Source: Hydrogenobacter sp. (GTDB lineage Bacteria > Aquificota > Aquificia > Aquificales > Aquificaceae). Taken from it: a DNA stretch of 64,000 nt. The stretch spans positions 1-64,000 of the forward strand of contig JAPYWJ010000005.1 of assembly GCA_028276405.1 (NCBI GenBank). The letters are read 5' to 3'. Below are positions 43,688 through 51,899 of this stretch, in pieces; positions within the stretch are counted from its first letter, which is position 1; every line of letters begins with the position of its first letter. The notes beneath the pieces are model-generated. The model saw only the letters and a list, made by a program, of their open reading frames with translations, was not told where the DNA came from and made no database searches. Position numbers and translations under genes: made by a program.

Positions 43688-44612
43688 GATACAATTTTAT
43701 CCTGTGAAAAGGGTCATAAACAAGGTCTTTTTTCTGCCTTTTGTGTTTTTAGCGTCGTGTGGACAGGCAGTTTTCTATCCAGAAGAGTGTCAGAATTACA
43801 TAAAAGCGGGGAACTACCAAAAAGCTATAGAAATAAGCAAGACTGCCATACAAGCTTACCCTAGAAATACAGAACCTTACTTATGCCTGAGTACAGCATA
43901 CCTTCATAAAGGAAAGCTTGATGATGCCATAAACACTATGAAAAAAGCAGAGCAAGTAGCACCTTCTTACGAAGATCTCGCACTTATCTACAACCGCTTA
44001 GGCTTTATGTATCACCTGAAGGGAGACTTGAACACCGCACTTGAATATCACCAAAAGCATCTTTCTGTAAGCCGTGAGGTAGGCGATACGAAAGGTCAGT
44101 TTATTGCCAATGTAAACATAGCAGATATATATCAGAGTAAGGGAGAATATACAAAAGCCATAGAGTATTACCAAAGGTCTGCGCAGTTCCTTTTAGACCC
44201 AAGAGATGGAGTTTTAGTTTATAAAAACATAGCTCAAACCTACATTAAACAGGGAAAATACAGGGATGCTGTTGAGAATTACAAAATAGCTTATGAGTAT
44301 GCAGAAAAGACAGGTGATAAAAAACTTCTTGGAGCTGTGCTTATAGATTTGGGGGATGCTTACAGATTAAATAGAGATTTCAAGAATGCTTTTGAAAGTC
44401 TCATAAAAGGCTTGGAAATAGCCAAAGCGCAGAAAGACAATCAACTCAAAGGGTACGCATACTTAAAATTAGGTCTTTTTTACAAAGATAAAGGAGACCT
44501 TAGCTCTGCAAAAGAGTTTCTCAAAAGAGCTTACGAAATCTACATCTCCATGAACGACAAAAAGGGCGCTCAAGAGGTACTTGAGCATATGAAGAGGATA
44601 GAAAAAAGATAA
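43686..44612 (+). CDS. TPR-repeat lipoprotein
   Basis: The protein has up to 308 residues. A hydrophobic signal ends in LASC, so it is a probable lipoprotein. About six to seven tetratricopeptide repeats follow (for example NYQKAIEISKTAIQAYPRNTEPY, given here to 20: NYQKAIEISKTAIQAYPRNT; and GEYTKAIEYYQRSAQFL; GKYRDAVENYKIAYEYA). It likely scaffolds an envelope complex; PilF/BamD-like roles are possible but not specific. Start is either ATG 43686, overlapping the mnmD start, or GTG 43704. Confidence 0.75.
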   Translation: MIQFYPVKRVINKVFFLPFVFLASCGQAVFYPEECQNYIKAGNYQKAIEISKTAIQAYPRNTEPYLCLSTAYLHKGKLDDAINTMKKAEQVAPSYEDLALIYNRLGFMYHLKGDLNTALEYHQKHLSVSREVGDTKGQFIANVNIADIYQSKGEYTKAIEYYQRSAQFLLDPRDGVLVYKNIAQTYIKQGKYRDAVENYKIAYEYAEKTGDKKLLGAVLIDLGDAYRLNRDFKNAFESLIKGLEIAKAQKDNQLKGYAYLKLGLFYKDKGDLSSAKEFLKRAYEIYISMNDKKGAQEVLEHMKRIEKR

Positions 44613-44613
44613 A

Positions 44614-45579
44614 CTACTCTAAACATCTCTCTACCAGTTTTTCACATAGCTTAAGAGCGTTCAAAGAAGATGAGACATCTGCTATACCTTTCCATGCTAT
44701 GTCGTAGGCGGTTCCGTGATCCGGAGATGTTCTCACAAAAGGTATACCAAGAGTTAAGTTCACACCCTCATTAAAGGCAAGCATCTTAAAGGGGATAAGC
44801 CCTTGGTCGTGATACATACACAAAAACACATCAAAAGCACCAGGCTTTAGGAACGCACTATCCGGAGAGAGAGGTCCTTCTACCTTGAAACCTTCACCTT
44901 TTAGCTTTTCCACAGCCGGTAGGATCTCTTCCATGTCCTCTTTACCTATCTGTCCCATCTCTCCCGCGTGAGGGTTTAAGCCAAGAACACCCACAGATGG
45001 CTCGTAGCCAAAGAGCCTTTTAAACTCTCGCACTATAAGCCTTACCTTCTGCTCTATCTTTTCCTTTTTCACATGCTCTATTGCTTTACTAAGGGGTAAG
45101 TGTGTAGAAAGAAGGAGCACTTTTATGCTTTGTGAATACATGAGCATAGCATAATCTCTTGTGCTGAAAGCCTGAGCAAGAAACTCCGTTTGACCTTCGT
45201 AGGAAAATCCAGCAAGCTTAGCCCAGAACTTGTTTATGGGCATGGTCAAAAGCCCATGTATTTTACGGTAAACAGCATCTACCACAGCCCTTCCTAAGTA
45301 AGCAACAGCAACTTTACCAGAGGTTAAAGAAGGCAGTGGTCTTTCTGTTTCGCATATATCAAGGTCTGCTATATAGATACCTGGAGCTTTTACATCATCG
45401 ATGGTATATATCTCCTTCATGTCTGCGTTTTTTTTCAAAAGGTCCTGTGCGTGTTTTATTATCTTCTTCTCCCCATACACTATGTAAGCTTTCTGGGGAT
45501 CCAAGTGATCTAAGAGCTTTACGATGAGCTCCGGACCAACTCCTGCGGGATCTCCTATGGTTATACCTATCCTTATCAT
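44614..45579 (-). CDS. pdxA: 4-hydroxythreonine-4-phosphate dehydrogenase
   Basis: The protein has 321 residues. It oxidises 4-phosphohydroxy-L-threonine in DXP-dependent vitamin B6 synthesis. It shows GITIGDPAGVGPELIVKLL at the start, the metal-binding MYHDQGLIPFKML and the C-terminal RTSPDHGTAYDIA. Start 45579 (MIRIGITIG) matches the family; an upstream in-frame extension belongs to the inserted tnpB region. The tnpB stop lies 13 bases upstream, so the native promoter may have been replaced by IS sequence. Confidence 0.94.
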   Translation of the reverse strand: MIRIGITIGDPAGVGPELIVKLLDHLDPQKAYIVYGEKKIIKHAQDLLKKNADMKEIYTIDDVKAPGIYIADLDICETERPLPSLTSGKVAVAYLGRAVVDAVYRKIHGLLTMPINKFWAKLAGFSYEGQTEFLAQAFSTRDYAMLMYSQSIKVLLLSTHLPLSKAIEHVKKEKIEQKVRLIVREFKRLFGYEPSVGVLGLNPHAGEMGQIGKEDMEEILPAVEKLKGEGFKVEGPLSPDSAFLKPGAFDVFLCMYHDQGLIPFKMLAFNEGVNLTLGIPFVRTSPDHGTAYDIAWKGIADVSSSLNALKLCEKLVERCLE

Positions 45580-45592
45580 AGGTAGTACCAGG

Positions 45593-47233
45593 TCACTCAA
45601 ACTGTATAGAACCGCAATTACTTGCAGTCGTCCCCTGACCTGGAAGGGAGGGACTAACACACTTTGCCACTCCTACCCAATCCCCTAAGAGGATCACCCT
45701 CTTTAAGGGAGAGAAGTCCCTAAAACTCTCAAGGCAGGAGAAGGCAAGGGCTGTGGAAAGAACTTGCCAGCTTTTTTGTAGGAACTTTGTCCCACCCCTC
45801 ATCGGTTTCTTCTCACGATTGACCGCTTGTTGGGTAGCTGGCTCACTCCTTCCGCTGTCCCGTGTATAGGAAAGCAATAACTCAAGATATCTCCTCAACC
45901 GCTTGACCCTTTCCTTGAGGGCGTTCCTCTTGTATTCATTCTTCTCCTTCTTTAACTCACTCTTCAGCTCATTAATCCGCTCATCCACCTTAGCAATAGC
46001 ATACGCTAAAAACTCTTTGTCTTTGAGTAGCTCCCTGTAATTCTTAGGTACTTCTTCCTCAAACCCAAGCCCACGCCTACCAATTACATAAGCACCAGCT
46101 ACATCCTTGTCTATGTTGTATATGGGTGCATACTTTAGCTTGCCTATGATTGATGTGTATGCAGGATTTACCTTAATCAACTGAACTCCCAGCCTCCTTG
46201 CATAGACCTCAATTTTCTCTAATATTGATTTATACACCCATTTATGGAGTTTTCTTCTTAATTTAGCCAAGCCGTCTCCTCTTTTGCCTTTAGGGACTTT
46301 TTGCAAATCTTCCACAACAACAGCCTTTCCACTCTCTAACGCCCTTTCTACCACTTGCCTTCCTATACGCCATGCTATATGTTCTCGCTGATTTTTGGTT
46401 TTGTCCTCCATCTCCCTTAAATCTATGTGTTCAAACTTTTCTAAATTCCCGTCCGTTGATACATAAGCTAAAGCTAAATGAAAGGGATAAGCGTTGATAT
46501 CTACACCCATAACTCCGTAAGCTTTATTAATAACAGGTTCTACAATCTTTTCTTCCCAACTCACTTGTGCATAGAATTTGTCATTTCTTACTTTCAACCG
46601 CACATTATACGCAAACCACTCACCCAATCTTTCCGCTTCCAATAGTTTCCATGTAAAGTCAATCCATTTGTCGCCCTTTCTCTTTGCATCCCTTATAACC
46701 TTAGCCCATACATACTCACCGCTTCCTAAGTTAATCCTAAGATACCATTGGTTATTCAAATTCACAAACCTAAGGTTTAGGTTGCCGTTTTTGGACTTTT
46801 CTCCTCTTGAGTAGAGGTAGTAGTATCTCCTTTCTTCCCACCTTTGGCGTAGCTTTTCTCTACGCTTGCCCGTTAGATGTTTATTCTTTAGCTTTTCAAA
46901 CAGTTCCCTTGAACCAAACACAAGCTTTTTAGGGTTTTGTCCTCTTTCTATGCACGACTTTAGCACTTGCTTTGCTATTAAGACAGCATCCTTTACATAC
47001 CTTGCGTTTAGCTTGTGTTTTTCTGCTACTCTTTTTTCCATCTCTTTATCTGCTATTCCCTCTAACAGCCTTTTATACGCATATCTTGTTGCGGAAGAAA
47101 ACCTACGCATTAAAGCTAATACTCTTTCTTTTTCTTCTTCCTTTTCAAACTCCAGCATACATTCCAGAGTTATGTAGAGTTTATGGGTTTTTTCTTCGCT
47201 ACAGTTTTTACTACTTGCTATGCTTAGCCCCAT
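45593..47233 (-). CDS. TnpB-like protein, second type, without zinc finger
   Basis: The protein has 546 residues, longer than typical TnpB. The RuvC-like residues are Asp245 in GVMGVDINAYPFH, Glu308 in VVVEDLQKV, and Asp375/377 in YNIDKDVAGAYVIGRRG; no CxxC pairs are present. It is a divergent IS605 OrfB type found in thermophiles, unrelated in detail to the 408-residue copy. The final 90 or so residues (after LLLSYTRDSGRSEPATQQ) lack a recognisable fold and may reflect an omegaRNA-encoding 3' end. No TnpA is adjacent. Element ends were not resolved; it sits just upstream of pdxA and downstream of the rhomboid gene. Confidence 0.85.
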   Translation of the reverse strand: MGLSIASSKNCSEEKTHKLYITLECMLEFEKEEEKERVLALMRRFSSATRYAYKRLLEGIADKEMEKRVAEKHKLNARYVKDAVLIAKQVLKSCIERGQNPKKLVFGSRELFEKLKNKHLTGKRREKLRQRWEERRYYYLYSRGEKSKNGNLNLRFVNLNNQWYLRINLGSGEYVWAKVIRDAKRKGDKWIDFTWKLLEAERLGEWFAYNVRLKVRNDKFYAQVSWEEKIVEPVINKAYGVMGVDINAYPFHLALAYVSTDGNLEKFEHIDLREMEDKTKNQREHIAWRIGRQVVERALESGKAVVVEDLQKVPKGKRGDGLAKLRRKLHKWVYKSILEKIEVYARRLGVQLIKVNPAYTSIIGKLKYAPIYNIDKDVAGAYVIGRRGLGFEEEVPKNYRELLKDKEFLAYAIAKVDERINELKSELKKEKNEYKRNALKERVKRLRRYLELLLSYTRDSGRSEPATQQAVNREKKPMRGGTKFLQKSWQVLSTALAFSCLESFRDFSPLKRVILLGDWVGVAKCVSPSLPGQGTTASNCGSIQFE

Positions 47234-47280: not shown

Positions 47281-47931
47281 CTACCACCCTTTTCGGTAAA
47301 AGAACCTAACAAGAGAATACCCTACTCCAAATCCGCCTATGTGAGCAAACCACGCTACACCACCTCCATGTGCAAAAGGAAGAGTGAGAATTCCATTAAG
47401 CACTTGGATAAGCACCCACAGACCTATGAAAAGTATTGCAGGCACTTCTACAAAAGTTAAAAAAATAAATATGGGAACCAAAGCCAATATTCTGGCATGG
47501 GGAAAGAGCCACAAATAAGCGCCTAGCACTCCACTTATGGCACCGCTTGCTCCTACCATAGGAACATCAGCTCCACCAAATAAGAAGCTTACTATAGTTT
47601 GCAAAATTGCAGCACCTACGCCCGATAATACATAAAAAACAAAATACCTGAACCTCCCAAGTCTATCCTCCACATTATCCCCAAAAACCCACAAAAACCA
47701 CATATTGCCTATAATGTGTAACCAGCTTCCGTGTAGGAACATGTGAGTAATCAGAGTGTAGGGTCTATAAAATATATCCGCGGGTACCAGCCCATAGTAG
47801 TATATAAAAAGGTTCATTTCCTCATCGTTAAGACTAACCTGATACAGCCAAACAACAGAACAGATCAGTATGATCAAAGAATTCACCAAAGGGAAATTTC
47901 TGCTCCTATTGATATCCTTTATAGGAAACAT
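47281..47931 (-). CDS. Rhomboid-family intramembrane serine protease
   Basis: The protein has 216 residues with six or so membrane helices. The catalytic serine is in GASGAISGVLGAY and the histidine in AHIGGFGVGY, with HGSWLHIIGNMWFLWVFG (the conserved HxxxN helix) earlier. It cuts single-span membrane proteins. Next to the TnpB element on one side and divergent from the membrane coiled-coil gene on the other, with 29 bases between. Confidence 0.93.
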   Translation of the reverse strand: MFPIKDINRSRNFPLVNSLIILICSVVWLYQVSLNDEEMNLFIYYYGLVPADIFYRPYTLITHMFLHGSWLHIIGNMWFLWVFGDNVEDRLGRFRYFVFYVLSGVGAAILQTIVSFLFGGADVPMVGASGAISGVLGAYLWLFPHARILALVPIFIFLTFVEVPAILFIGLWVLIQVLNGILTLPFAHGGGVAWFAHIGGFGVGYSLVRFFYRKGW

Positions 47932-47960: not shown

Positions 47961-49130
47961 ATGAAGGAAAGCTTAAAGATTCTCTTCTTGATAGTGGCTT
48001 ATAACTTTATCCTTGAGTACATCTCAGAGAAACTGCCAATAAAACTGTTTCCTGATAACCTTCAGAGCTTTGTGATGTTAATGTCTTTTGACTCTGCCCT
48101 TTACCTTGCATGGCTTTTTGGTTATAGGTACAGCACCTTACTTTGGTTTTCTTACCTCTTTTTCTTTCAAATACTAGGTATGTCTCTAATTACCCAGAGC
48201 TTTTACCCAATAACCCACTTCACACCATCTTTTCTGATCACGCTTATATTCCTGTCCTTATCTGAATCGCCAACAGAAAAGCACACAAAAAAAATCCTTG
48301 AGGAGAAGTATAGACTTGAAAAAGAGTTAGAAGATACAAAGGAACAGGTAAAATTAGCTCAAGATCTGCTGAACCTTCTGAAAAGAGAAAAGGAACAAGT
48401 GGAGATAAAACTCAGTCAGCTTGAGGAGAGCCAAACCATAGAAACACAGAGGCTTTTAAAAGAAAAGGAAGAGCTTATACAGATGATAAGCCAAGCACAG
48501 ATGCATCTGAACGAATACCAAAGTAGGCTTGAAAGGCTCACAGAAGCCAACAGAAAGCTCTTTGAAGTGATCGATTTATTACAAAGGCAAGAAGAGAAAA
48601 ACCAAAAGGGAGAGATAGCACAGTTAAGAAGGGAAAGAAAAAAATTGGTAAAGGAACTTTTACAGTTGGAGTCCACCTTAGAAGACTGCAGAAGACAGAA
48701 CGCAGAGCTGAAACTTGAACTTTCTGAGTTTGAAAGCATCAAAAGGGAAAGAGAAATTTTGGCTATAGAACTGCAAGATTTAAAGAAGAAGCAAAAAACA
48801 AAGGGTGATATATACAAAGAAGTGTTGAACTTCCTTCTTGAAAACATAGAGATGGAAGACAGAGCTATAAGCGAGTTTATACACCTACCAATAGAGAAAA
48901 AGCGCGAGTTTGTCAAAGAACTTCTGATTCTCAACATGAAGGAAAGAGGAGAATCTTTAGAAAATATGAAGGGGCTCAAAAATGTTTTTAAGCTAAAACC
49001 AAGGGGTGGGAGGATATACTTTACCTTTGGAGAAAACAGAAGATGGAAAGTGTTAGGGCTTATAGCCTCTGAAGATGACAAAGACAAAGAAAAATACGCA
49101 AAGGAGATTTTGATAAAATATATGCAGTAG
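47961..49130 (+). CDS. Membrane-anchored coiled-coil protein with RelE/ParE-like C-terminal domain
   Basis: The protein has 389 residues. Residues 1 to about 110 hold three or four membrane segments. Residues 115-280 form a long coiled coil (heptads rich in K, E, L). The end (about 305-389) reads LKNVFKLKPRGGRIYFTFGE, then a WKVLGLIASEDDKDK segment, which follows the RelE/ParE pattern G-L..v.kLR.g.yRi.F....…ilgi..hkdk.y. RelE-type domains bind ribosomes and cut mRNA; the catalytic state here is unknown. It is followed after 20 bases by a baeRF gene and then a NYN RNase gene, suggesting a shared translation- or RNA-related task. I know of no described protein with this layout. Confidence 0.6.
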   Translation: MKESLKILFLIVAYNFILEYISEKLPIKLFPDNLQSFVMLMSFDSALYLAWLFGYRYSTLLWFSYLFFFQILGMSLITQSFYPITHFTPSFLITLIFLSLSESPTEKHTKKILEEKYRLEKELEDTKEQVKLAQDLLNLLKREKEQVEIKLSQLEESQTIETQRLLKEKEELIQMISQAQMHLNEYQSRLERLTEANRKLFEVIDLLQRQEEKNQKGEIAQLRRERKKLVKELLQLESTLEDCRRQNAELKLELSEFESIKREREILAIELQDLKKKQKTKGDIYKEVLNFLLENIEMEDRAISEFIHLPIEKKREFVKELLILNMKERGESLENMKGLKNVFKLKPRGGRIYFTFGENRRWKVLGLIASEDDKDKEKYAKEILIKYMQ

Positions 49131-49150
49131 AACTCAAGCGGAGGTAGAGT

Positions 49151-50371
49151 ATGAAAAGCTTAAAAGAGTCCCTTGATGTGCTAACATCCTTTAAGCCAAA
49201 CAAATACATGGTTACAAGTCTCTATCTGAGGCTCATGCCTGAGGACAGAACAGATAGAAAGTATCTTTTAAACTTTAAAAACATGGTAAAAGAGCAAAAG
49301 GAGTATCTTTCAAAGAGAAATTTAGAAAAAGAGGTGGTGGAATCACTAAACGAAGATTTTGCAAAAATGGAGTCTTATCTATCCCAGTTGGAAAATTTAA
49401 AAGGGTCAAGGGGTATAGCTATATTCTCATCAAGTGCCAAAGGGCTCTTTGAGGTAATAAAGCTTCCTTATGTTTATAGGAACAGACTTATGGTATCTCA
49501 GAATCCAAAAATCAGGGAAATAGCAGCTATAGACGAAGAGTTAGGACTGGTAGGTGTTTTGCTAATAGACAGAAAGCATGTAAAGTTCTACATGATGGAT
49601 ATGGAAGGTATTTACGAAATGGTGGATTTTCTTGAGCCTTTAGCGACAAGATCCCACAAATTTCACAGTGGTGGTGGGCTTCTTAAAGGTGCACAGAGTG
49701 TTATGAGGTACACCATGCCTGCGAGGGCAGGAGCTCCCAACATGGTACAGCATTCCTACGGGGAATACAGATTTCACATGAGGATAAGAGAAGAAAAGCA
49801 CAGGCTTTTTAAGATAGCAAACGATGCACTTATGGAAGCTTGGAAGGAACACAAGTTTGATAAACTCGTGATAGGTAGCGATAGGGAAGACATAAAGGAA
49901 ATAGAGCATCACCTACACCCATACCTTTTGAATAGGCTTTTAGGATATGCTCGTGCAAACCCAAGTGGGGTCACAGATAAAGAGCTTATGTCTTCGGTTA
50001 TAGACCTGCTTTGGCAGAAAGATAGAGAACAGGAAAAAGAGCTTTTGAAAGAGCTTGAAGAATTAAAGGGTAAAGGGCTTGCTGTAAATGGAACCAGTCA
50101 AGTGCTGGAACAGTTAGCTATGGGAAATGTGAAGCTACTTTTGGTGCCAGAAGACTTTGAGAAGCCCGGATACTTATGCTCTGAATCTAACCTTCCCACG
50201 CTCAAGCCAGAGTGTCCTATACAAGGCGAGGTAGCGTATGAAGTCCCTGATATAGTAGACGAAGCAATAGAGCTTGCCTTAGAAGAAAAAGCGTTGGTAG
50301 AAGTAATAATGGACCCACAAGCACAGAAAAAGATAGATGGGCTCTCTGCTTTTCTAAGATTTGCAATATGA
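49151..50371 (+). CDS. Bacterial archaeo-eukaryotic release factor-like protein (baeRF)
   Basis: The protein has 406 residues. It resembles the bacterial eRF1/Vms1-like family: an N-terminal domain, a central eRF1 domain 2-like region (ELGLVGVLLIDRKHVKFYMM, then KFHSGGGLLKGAQS at the place of the GGQ loop) and a domain 3-like C-terminal part (FDKLVIGSDREDIKEIEHHL, LVPEDFEKPGYLCSES). Eukaryotic Vms1 and related proteins release nascent chains from stalled ribosomes. The strict GGQ is absent; GGG-x5-GAQ may replace it. AGCGGAGG precedes the start. It overlaps the NYN gene by 4 bases. Confidence 0.72.
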   Translation: MKSLKESLDVLTSFKPNKYMVTSLYLRLMPEDRTDRKYLLNFKNMVKEQKEYLSKRNLEKEVVESLNEDFAKMESYLSQLENLKGSRGIAIFSSSAKGLFEVIKLPYVYRNRLMVSQNPKIREIAAIDEELGLVGVLLIDRKHVKFYMMDMEGIYEMVDFLEPLATRSHKFHSGGGLLKGAQSVMRYTMPARAGAPNMVQHSYGEYRFHMRIREEKHRLFKIANDALMEAWKEHKFDKLVIGSDREDIKEIEHHLHPYLLNRLLGYARANPSGVTDKELMSSVIDLLWQKDREQEKELLKELEELKGKGLAVNGTSQVLEQLAMGNVKLLLVPEDFEKPGYLCSESNLPTLKPECPIQGEVAYEVPDIVDEAIELALEEKALVEVIMDPQAQKKIDGLSAFLRFAI

Positions 50372-50964
50372 TCGATGAGAGGGTAACTCTTTTCATAGAT
50401 GGTTCCAACCTCTTCCACGCTATAAGGTATTTAAACATAAAGATAGACTATCAAAAGCTCGTAGAGTTTTTAACAGAAAGCAGAAGGCTTATCAGAGCTT
50501 ATTTTTATGGTGCTATACCTCAGGAGAAGGATGTGAAAAAAAACACTCCTGAATGGGAAAGTCTCATGAGGCAGAGGAGATTTTTAGAAGAGCTTTCCCT
50601 CGCAGGCATAAAGGTTAAGATGGCACACCTTAGAAAACTACCTTCCGGTGAATATGTGGAAAAAGAGGTAGATATTATGTTAGCTACTGACATGCTTAGC
50701 ATGGCATACATGGATGCTTATGACACTGCAGTACTTGTAAGTGGAGATAGTGATTTTTCTTATACAGTTGAAGAGGTACAAAGGATAGGAAAAAGGGTAG
50801 AGAACGCATCTTTTAAAAAAACAAGTTCTTATCAGTTGAGAAAAGTGTGCGACAGGTTTATACTGCTTGATGACTACATTGATAGGTTTGTAGTAGAGGA
50901 GAAGCCCATTATTACGCAAGAGGTAAGCTTTTGGGAGAAGATAGCAAAGCTTTGGAAGAGATGA
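50368..50964 (+). CDS. NYN-domain ribonuclease (LabA/DUF88)
   Basis: The protein has 198 residues with a PIN-like NYN fold. Acidic residues are in LFIDGSNLFHA (first strand), KEVDIMLATDM and LVSGDSDFSYTVEEV. These form a metal-dependent RNase site. The short C-terminal tail is basic and aromatic. It is translationally coupled to the baeRF gene before and ribF after (both 4-base overlaps). With a RelE-like and an eRF1-like partner, RNA cleavage at or after ribosome stalling is a reasonable but unproven idea. Confidence 0.85.
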   Translation: MIDERVTLFIDGSNLFHAIRYLNIKIDYQKLVEFLTESRRLIRAYFYGAIPQEKDVKKNTPEWESLMRQRRFLEELSLAGIKVKMAHLRKLPSGEYVEKEVDIMLATDMLSMAYMDAYDTAVLVSGDSDFSYTVEEVQRIGKRVENASFKKTSSYQLRKVCDRFILLDDYIDRFVVEEKPIITQEVSFWEKIAKLWKR

Positions 50965-51899
50965 AAGTACTCTCTTTAAAATGGAACGGAGAATGCATAA
51001 AAAAACTTGAGTGTGTGGAAGAAATCTTAGACCCTTGTGCTATAACTGTTGGAAATTTTGACGGCGTCCATCTTGGACATATGTTTCTCATCGATAAACT
51101 CAAAAAAGAAGCTGTAGCAAGAAATCTAAAAACTCTTGTGCTTTCCTTTTATCCACATCCTCTTAAAGTGCTTGCTCCAAAACAGCTTCCCTGTGAACTT
51201 ACGAGTCTTGAAGAAAGGACACAGCTGATGGCTACCTTAGGAATAGATTACACAGTATTTTTGAGGTTTGACGAAAGATTCTCCCTTATGAGAGCAGAGA
51301 ACTTTCTAATGGACATACTTTATAACAGATTAAAAGTAAGGTTTTTGCTCGTTGGGTACGATTGGAGATTTGGCTACAAGAGAGAAGGGGAAATAGAACT
51401 GGCAAAGGAGGTAGGGCAAAGATTGGGTTTTGATGTCCTTTCGGTAGAGCCTTTCAAACTGGGCCAACATGTGGTGAGTAGTACTTTGATAAGAAGATTA
51501 CTTCGCGAAGGTAGATTAGAAGAAGCACACACTTATCTTGGAAGACCTTACTGGATAAGAAGGAAGGTGGTAAAGGGGGATGGTAGGGGCGCTTCCATAG
51601 GTATTCCCACGGCAAATTTAGAGGGTACAGAAAATTTATGTTTGAAAGAAGGTGTGTATGCTGTGCTGGTTGAAGACCATCTTATAGGTGTTGCCAACTA
51701 TGGATACAGGCCTACCTTTAACGGTAGGAAAAAAGTGCTGGAGGTACATATCCTTGACTTTAAAGGAGATTTGAAAAACAAAAAGATAAAGGTAGAGTTT
51801 GTAAAGTTTCTAAGGGGAGAGAGGAAATTTGGCTCTGTGCATGAACTCGTCCAGCAGATACACCAAGATATAGCATTAGTTAGAAGCCTCTTGAAATAG
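50961..51899 (+). CDS. ribF: Bifunctional riboflavin kinase/FAD synthetase
   Basis: The protein has 312 residues. The N-terminal FAD synthetase domain has TVGNFDGVHLGHMFLIDKLK and SSTLIRRLLREG; the C-terminal riboflavin kinase has VVKGDGRGASIGIPTANLE. It makes FMN and FAD from riboflavin. The start at 50961 (ATGA overlap with the NYN gene) is preferred over an in-frame ATG 30 bases upstream. The 3' end overlaps a hypothetical gene on the other strand by 24 bases. Confidence 0.94.
   Translation: MKVLSLKWNGECIKKLECVEEILDPCAITVGNFDGVHLGHMFLIDKLKKEAVARNLKTLVLSFYPHPLKVLAPKQLPCELTSLEERTQLMATLGIDYTVFLRFDERFSLMRAENFLMDILYNRLKVRFLLVGYDWRFGYKREGEIELAKEVGQRLGFDVLSVEPFKLGQHVVSSTLIRRLLREGRLEEAHTYLGRPYWIRRKVVKGDGRGASIGIPTANLEGTENLCLKEGVYAVLVEDHLIGVANYGYRPTFNGRKKVLEVHILDFKGDLKNKKIKVEFVKFLRGERKFGSVHELVQQIHQDIALVRSLLK

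Follow-up and report, generated by a model that had tools for sequence, protein, structure and literature searches.

The window analysed in this study is a 64,000-nucleotide stretch of DNA from Hydrogenobacter sp., and the locus of interest comprises three genes followed by ribF:

47961–49130, forward strand: gene 1, an open reading frame encoding 389 aa with a membrane anchor, a coiled coil, and a RelE-fold domain
49140–49144, forward strand: Shine-Dalgarno-like GGAGG preceding gene 2, read from the sequence
49151–50371, forward strand: gene 2, encoding 406 aa (baeRF family 12, Balon-like, aeRF1 superfamily)
50368–50964, forward strand: gene 3, encoding a 198-aa NYN (PIN-like) protein (PF01936, 3.1e-33)
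50961–51899, forward strand: ribF (Pfam FAD_syn, 1.5e-50), a housekeeping neighbour for which no functional role is claimed

The original prediction described three adjacent, packed genes running into ribF, and the open reading frames confirmed this arrangement. A gap of 20 nt (49131–49150) separates gene 1 from gene 2, gene 2 overlaps gene 3 by an ATGA (50368–50371), and a second 4-nt ATGA overlap joins the NYN gene to ribF (50961–50964). This spacing fits a single transcript that would cover genes 1–3 and ribF. Scanning the locus for promoters and terminators yielded fewer matches than scanning shuffled sequences and was uninformative, and no Rfam match was obtained between positions 44000 and 53000. 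A rhomboid protease gene (47281–47931, reverse strand; Pfam 4.7e-36) is divergent from gene 1, and in locus L065 a rhomboid gene is likewise found upstream of gene 1. A 546-aa transposase-like, TnpB-like open reading frame (45593–47233, reverse strand; PHROG transposase 1.1e-10, with a weak match of 0.0097 to a Cas12f1-like TNB family) overlaps the 5' end of a pdxA-like gene (44614–45660).

The C-terminal domain of the gene 1 protein is homologous to RelE

The gene 1 protein is divided into the following parts:

47961–48269, forward strand: residues 1–103, predicted membrane anchor, with Kyte-Doolittle peaks near residues 4–22, 36–55, 58–79, and 82–102
48270–48806, forward strand: residues 104–282, a long charged coiled coil (~180 residues) with profile matches to many unrelated coiled coils
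48807–49127, forward strand: residues 283–389, RelE-fold (BECR) domain, identified by profile search, AlphaFold model, Foldseek, and profile-profile comparison
48987–49019, forward strand: residues 343–353, core motif FKLKPRGGRIY, in which K344, K346, and R351 are the counterparts of RelE K52, K54, and R61
49071–49097, forward strand: residues 371–379, conserved EDDKDKEKY, with E371 and K376 invariant and Y379 the likely counterpart of RelE Y87

Hydropathy and the coiled-coil profile matches supported the predicted layout of a membrane-anchored coiled-coil protein. The Kyte-Doolittle profile suggests that the anchor probably consists of about four transmembrane helices, and both of its ends are probably cytoplasmic, as judged by the positive-inside rule rather than by a dedicated topology program. 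The coiled coil carries equal numbers of acidic and basic residues. When the full-length profile was searched against the PDB, coiled-coil matches dominated and the search was uninformative.

The family libraries did not recognise RelE in gene 1; the C-terminal domain gave nothing significant in Pfam or NCBIfam, with two rows weakly matching Gp49. The RelE assignment therefore needed profile and fold evidence. A profile built from 26 C-terminal domain sequences gave four PDB matches below E = 0.01, all of which were RelE (E about 0.0047–0.0092), and the next match followed at E = 0.25. With a more diverse profile, RelE chains again ranked first and one unrelated chain came next at 0.048. The AlphaFold (AF2) model of the domain was confident (pLDDT 89.8, pTM 0.84), and its predicted order is a leading helix and then strand-helix-helix-strand-strand-strand-helix. 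In the Foldseek comparison with the PDB, the best matches were RelE 4fxe_E and the ribosome-bound 4v7j_Ay (TM 0.63/0.70), E values were about 1e-3 and probabilities near 1.00, and the upper ranks were occupied nearly entirely by RelE/ParE-type toxins, together with Cami1 (8phb). An hhalign comparison with 18 RelE/ParE sequences from Aquificota class-mates yielded a probability of 94% (E 1e-7), and a local profile-profile rerun scored 38.7, whereas 100 shuffles of the columns gave no score above 9.66 and the reversed profile gave 2.36. Profile search, predicted fold, and shuffle-controlled profile-profile comparison thus establish the homology of this domain to the RelE superfamily: it has the RelE/ParE (BECR) fold, its closest structural similarity is to RelE, and its sequence homology is detectable. 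The RelE/ParE-like C-terminus was the least certain point of the original prediction, and it is now the best-supported new fact.

We then compared the domain with the RelE active site. The core of 24 diverse sequences follows the pattern [FY]-K-x-[KR]-x-x-GGR-x-Y, in which K344, G349, G350, R351, and Y353 are invariant and position 346 is always Lys or Arg. Position 379 is Tyr in most of these relatives and Phe, His, or Val in some, and Y379 is the probable counterpart of Y87. No counterpart of R81 could be placed in the gene 1 domain, where the loop before position 379 is acidic (E-[DE]-x-[KRA]-x-K) and offers no suitable Arg. As read from the alignment, the RelE-type set would therefore comprise invariant R61 and K52 counterparts, Lys or Arg for K54, a mostly aromatic residue for Y87, and an unplaced R81. 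R61A is among three single mutations, with R81A and Y87A, that clearly lower cleavage by RelE; K52A and K54A do not, and little activity is left in R81A/Y87F (PMC2807027). Because the catalytic set is kept in part, cutting by the gene 1 domain is possible but not assured. The mean net charge per 100 aa was +3.2 for the gene 1 domain, compared with +11.0 for Aquificota RelE/ParE toxins, and a domain less basic than free RelE weakens the case for A-site docking.

The gene 1 domain resembles RelE of E. coli, a ribosome-dependent mRNA interferase, in its fold, in the counterparts of K52, K54, and R61, and probably in that of Y87; however, it ends a membrane coiled-coil protein, lacks an antitoxin and R81, and is much less basic. 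Cami1, a CARF-RelE type III CRISPR effector, likewise has its RelE domain inside a larger protein and matches in fold (8phb), but gene 1 carries a membrane anchor instead of a CARF domain, and the loci inspected had no CRISPR context. In ToxM (Gerdes 2025, PMC11980606), a BECR-fold domain is also joined to a membrane part; in ToxM, however, the BECR domain is N-terminal, the C-terminal domain is extracytoplasmic, and the antitoxin is ToxR, whereas the BECR domain of gene 1 is C-terminal and follows a coiled coil. Gene 1 therefore has neither the N-terminal BECR domain nor the ToxR partner that define ToxM, and it has no adjacent antitoxin gene of the type II kind. Keyword searches, which were noisy and covered part of the literature, found no earlier description of transmembrane helices, coiled coil, and RelE fold in one protein. 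The layout appears undescribed, its nearest relatives being Cami1 and ToxM, both clearly different.

Gene 2 belongs with Balon relatives and gene 3 with NYN proteins

Two regions of gene 2 are of particular relevance:

49658–49696, forward strand: residues 170–182 (KFHSGGGLLKGAQ), part of the middle-domain loop that is the site of GGQ in aeRF1; GGQ is absent
50030–50368, forward strand: residues 294–406, eRF1 domain 3, a pelota-type C-terminal domain (Pfam PF03465, 1.1e-5)

Gene 2 was predicted to encode an eRF1/Vms1-like protein. Its place in the eRF1 superfamily was upheld by Pfam (baeRF_family12, 2.7e-18) and by a profile search against the PDB, which matched archaeal aRF1, the Balon homologue Msmeg1130, and, weakly, Rv2629. 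The Vms1 part of the prediction was not upheld; judged by its sequence, the protein is assigned to the baeRF/Balon branch and not to the Vms1 (VLRF1) branch. Similar to Balon, Msmeg1130, and baeRF family 12, it is of the aeRF1 type, combines a baeRF family 12 middle domain with eRF1 domain 3, and lacks GGQ. It differs in falling below the curated cut-offs of the Balon-family NCBI models (2e-18 to 3e-18). Balon hibernation factors are characterised by an HP motif in the N-domain and by A-site binding with EF-Tu; no HP motif is evident in gene 2, where a weak alignment puts the invariant R122-E123 at its position. The AlphaFold model of gene 2 was poor (pLDDT 54).

The middle-domain loop has no GGQ and reads HKFHSGG..LKGA[QE]. 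The window protein has Q182, but most relatives have Glu at this position; Gln is not conserved, and the catalytic Gln expected of Vms1/VLRF1 or aeRF1 release factors is missing. The ribosome-hibernation factor Balon binds the ribosomal A site and lacks GGQ (PMC10901736), and baeRF families without the Gln are thought to be inactive as hydrolases (PMC6514570). The absence of GGQ thus fits Balon and most baeRF proteins rather than a release factor (PMC10901736, PMC6514570), and the proposal that gene 2 releases peptides is not sustained. No link between gene 2 and raiA emerged: a raiA-family gene was present in 39 of 41 genomes regardless of gene 2, and it lies on a separate contig in the genome of the window.

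The prediction of an NYN domain in the third protein was correct (PF01936, 115.8 bits against a cut-off of 24.2), and the nearest PDB chain was 2qip (VPA0982). Gene 3 resembles NYN proteins of the LabA/VPA0982 kind and shows nothing unusual. NYN genes were found in 127 of the 136 genomes of the class, with or without genes 1 and 2, a count that includes some matches to a more distant paralogue. The window's genome (G000) itself has two NYN genes, the second of which is 37% identical to gene 3 and unlinked to it (L139/C33 and L140/C54). Gene 3 was also considered as HARP, the RNase P of Aquificaceae, which is of the PIN_5 family (PMC10941002); this was rejected, since gene 3 matches NYN and not PIN_5 and a separate PIN_5 gene lies on contig C45. 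Gene 3 is an ordinary NYN protein of a general RNase type that shares the operon.

Distribution, descent, and linkage of the genes

Orthologs of gene 1 were identified in 60 of the 136 genomes of the class and in 11 of 30 genera, with one copy each (two drafts in which the gene is split over contig ends were counted once per genome). Almost every good Aquificaceae genome has the gene, genus g4 excepted, and it also occurs in family f3. A genome-wide GTDB scan recovered 25 gene 1 loci, of which 24 were labelled Aquificota and one, in a MAG, was labelled Acidobacteria, probably through mislabelling. In the gene 1 tree, the tested genera and family f3 were recovered as clades, and g1 and g6 formed clades in both the gene 1 and gene 2 trees. 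At the thresholds used, phages, plasmids, and viral contigs contained no homologs of gene 1. No antitoxin gene adjoins it; its neighbours are rhomboid, baeRF, NYN, and ribF genes in the window and metabolic genes elsewhere. Gene 1 is therefore a vertically inherited single-copy core gene of the heat-loving Aquificaceae and one sister family, and is not mobile. In family f3 (L090, L092, and L104), gene 1 is separated from both gene 2 and NYN, and the adjoining genes encode a large membrane protein and a peptidase-like protein, judged by eye to be STT3-like and M23-like, respectively.

Among 88 good genomes, 39 had both gene 1 and gene 2, three had gene 1 only, two had gene 2 only, and 44 had neither, although few evolutionary events lie behind these counts. 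Both genes were absent from genus g4 and from family f2, except for gene 2 in one incomplete genome (G103). The gene 2 protein of this genome (L054) is 64% identical to that of the window, and because the assembly is 82% complete, contamination or transfer is possible.

The original prediction had made its three-gene module depend on the genes being kept together in other Aquificales. This was true of six genera, in which genes 1 and 2 are adjacent (g1, g2, g3, g6, g9, and one g8 genome, G050), and untrue of g7, most of g8, g10, g11, and family f3, in which they are apart, in some cases on draft contigs; in G052, a single contig, the distance is about 900 kb. Gene 2 and NYN are adjacent throughout family f1 wherever both are whole on one contig, and apart in f3. 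Six assemblies (G012, G014, G019, G034, G043, and G047) lack gene 2 altogether, and in them 2–100 nt separate the end of gene 1 from NYN. Loci with a clean absence of gene 2 between the two include L071 (9194–9211), L066 (1515–1613), and L085 (905–930). G043 is 99% complete, so at least that loss is real, and the retention of gene 1 beside NYN after loss of gene 2 indicates that gene 1 does not need gene 2. Support for the proposed three-gene module is weak and partial: genes 1 and 2 co-occur, but in several genera they are not linked. For genes 1 and 2 the data are suggestive of a link, and their association with NYN looks like operon sharing.

Possible roles at the ribosome

Taking up the observed fold, conservation, architecture, distribution, and synteny, we assign a probability of approximately 40% to the reading that gene 1 encodes a membrane-tethered ribosomal A-site factor, perhaps an attenuated mRNase, which acts alongside a Balon-like factor. 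The topology, ribosome binding, cutting, and handover between the two proteins would be as follows. The gene 1 protein would sit in the cytoplasmic membrane and present its RelE-fold domain to ribosomes on the coiled-coil arm. The domain would dock in the A site near the membrane and handle the mRNA there, either by slow or on-demand cutting, as an attenuated and antitoxin-free RelE, or by merely holding the site. The gene 2 protein, provided that it acts like Balon, would bind under stress to this A site, on ribosomes that are idle or translating, without releasing peptides, and the two proteins would either be competitors at the site or use it one after the other. Gene 1 usually adjoins the gene for the Balon relative, and both proteins may therefore act at the same ribosomal site; if so, they would work on idle or stalled ribosomes.

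The RelE homology of the domain and the match of invariant K344 and R351 and of Lys/Arg 346 to RelE K52, R61, and K54 count in favour of the A-site factor. So does the precedent of Cami1, in which a RelE domain within a larger regulated protein cuts A-site mRNA (PMC11229360), together with the fold match to 8phb. The Balon-family matches of gene 2, the co-occurrence of genes 1 and 2, their adjacency in six genera, and the recovery of g1 and g6 as clades in both trees point the same way. Against it stand the absent R81 counterpart, Phe at 379 in several relatives, and the low charge, as well as the repeated loss of gene 2, the unlinked genes outside most Aquificaceae genera, and the few events.

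A rival explanation is that the genes share synteny only. Gene 1 would then act outside translation, for example in a structural or envelope role in which the RelE fold makes contact with proteins or RNA, and neither gene 2 nor NYN would depend on it. The placement of gene 1 apart from gene 2 amid ordinary metabolic genes in several genera, the repeated loss of gene 2 alone, and the near universality of NYN in the class agree with this, but the 39/3/2/44 distribution with joint absence from g4 and nearly all of f2 does not, and conservation extends from the fold to the RelE-type residues. We consider this explanation possible but doubtful.

The residue pattern also bears on a non-catalytic tether, in which the RelE fold would have lost its cutting activity and would plug the A site of idle ribosomes, parking them at the membrane. 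The missing R81 counterpart and the Phe that some relatives have at 379 would suit such a protein, an antitoxin-less, long-kept single-copy core gene would be odd for an active toxin, and the literature discusses ribosome-hibernation proteins linked to the membrane, such as YqjD. Nevertheless, the R61 counterpart is invariant, though tethering alone would not obviously need it, and the low net positive charge of the domain counts against this reading. We regard the tether as rather unlikely.

Improbable, in our estimate, is a membrane translation-control pathway in which a tethered RelE-type endonuclease would cut the A-site mRNA of ribosomes that are stalled or engaged with a translocon, after which the Balon-like factor would hold the emptied A site. 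If true, it would be a bacterial counterpart of Cue2/Dom34 no-go decay logic, built on a toxin fold that has been tamed and retained in a core gene.

The membrane-linked rescue or defence module of the original prediction is mostly unsupported. A toxin-antitoxin or anti-phage system with gene 1 as its effector would accord with the RelE/ParE fold, the described transmembrane BECR toxin ToxM (PMC11980606), and the matches of NYN to two PADLOC models; it is nonetheless highly improbable, since gene 1 is single-copy, descends vertically genus by genus, is present in almost every good Aquificaceae genome except those of g4, has no antitoxin gene, and is without a match in phages, plasmids, or viral contigs. 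Equally hard to credit is rescue by peptide release, in which gene 1 would cut mRNA and gene 2 would then hydrolyse peptidyl-tRNA. Dom34, a Pelota-type rescue factor of yeast, and the aeRF1 superfamily membership of gene 2 speak for it. Yeast Cue2, which cuts A-site mRNA on stalled ribosomes (PMC6598757), does so as well, but gene 2 has no GGQ, its Gln is not conserved, and Gln-less baeRF families are thought inactive (PMC6514570).

Most known RelE-fold domains are mobile toxins that antitoxins keep in check. In this deep-branching bacterial family, such a domain appears to have been built into a membrane protein whose single-copy gene is inherited vertically, and residues typical of the toxins are still conserved. 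Should gene 1 act on ribosomes, it would bring together hibernation, occupancy of the A site, and a location at the membrane.
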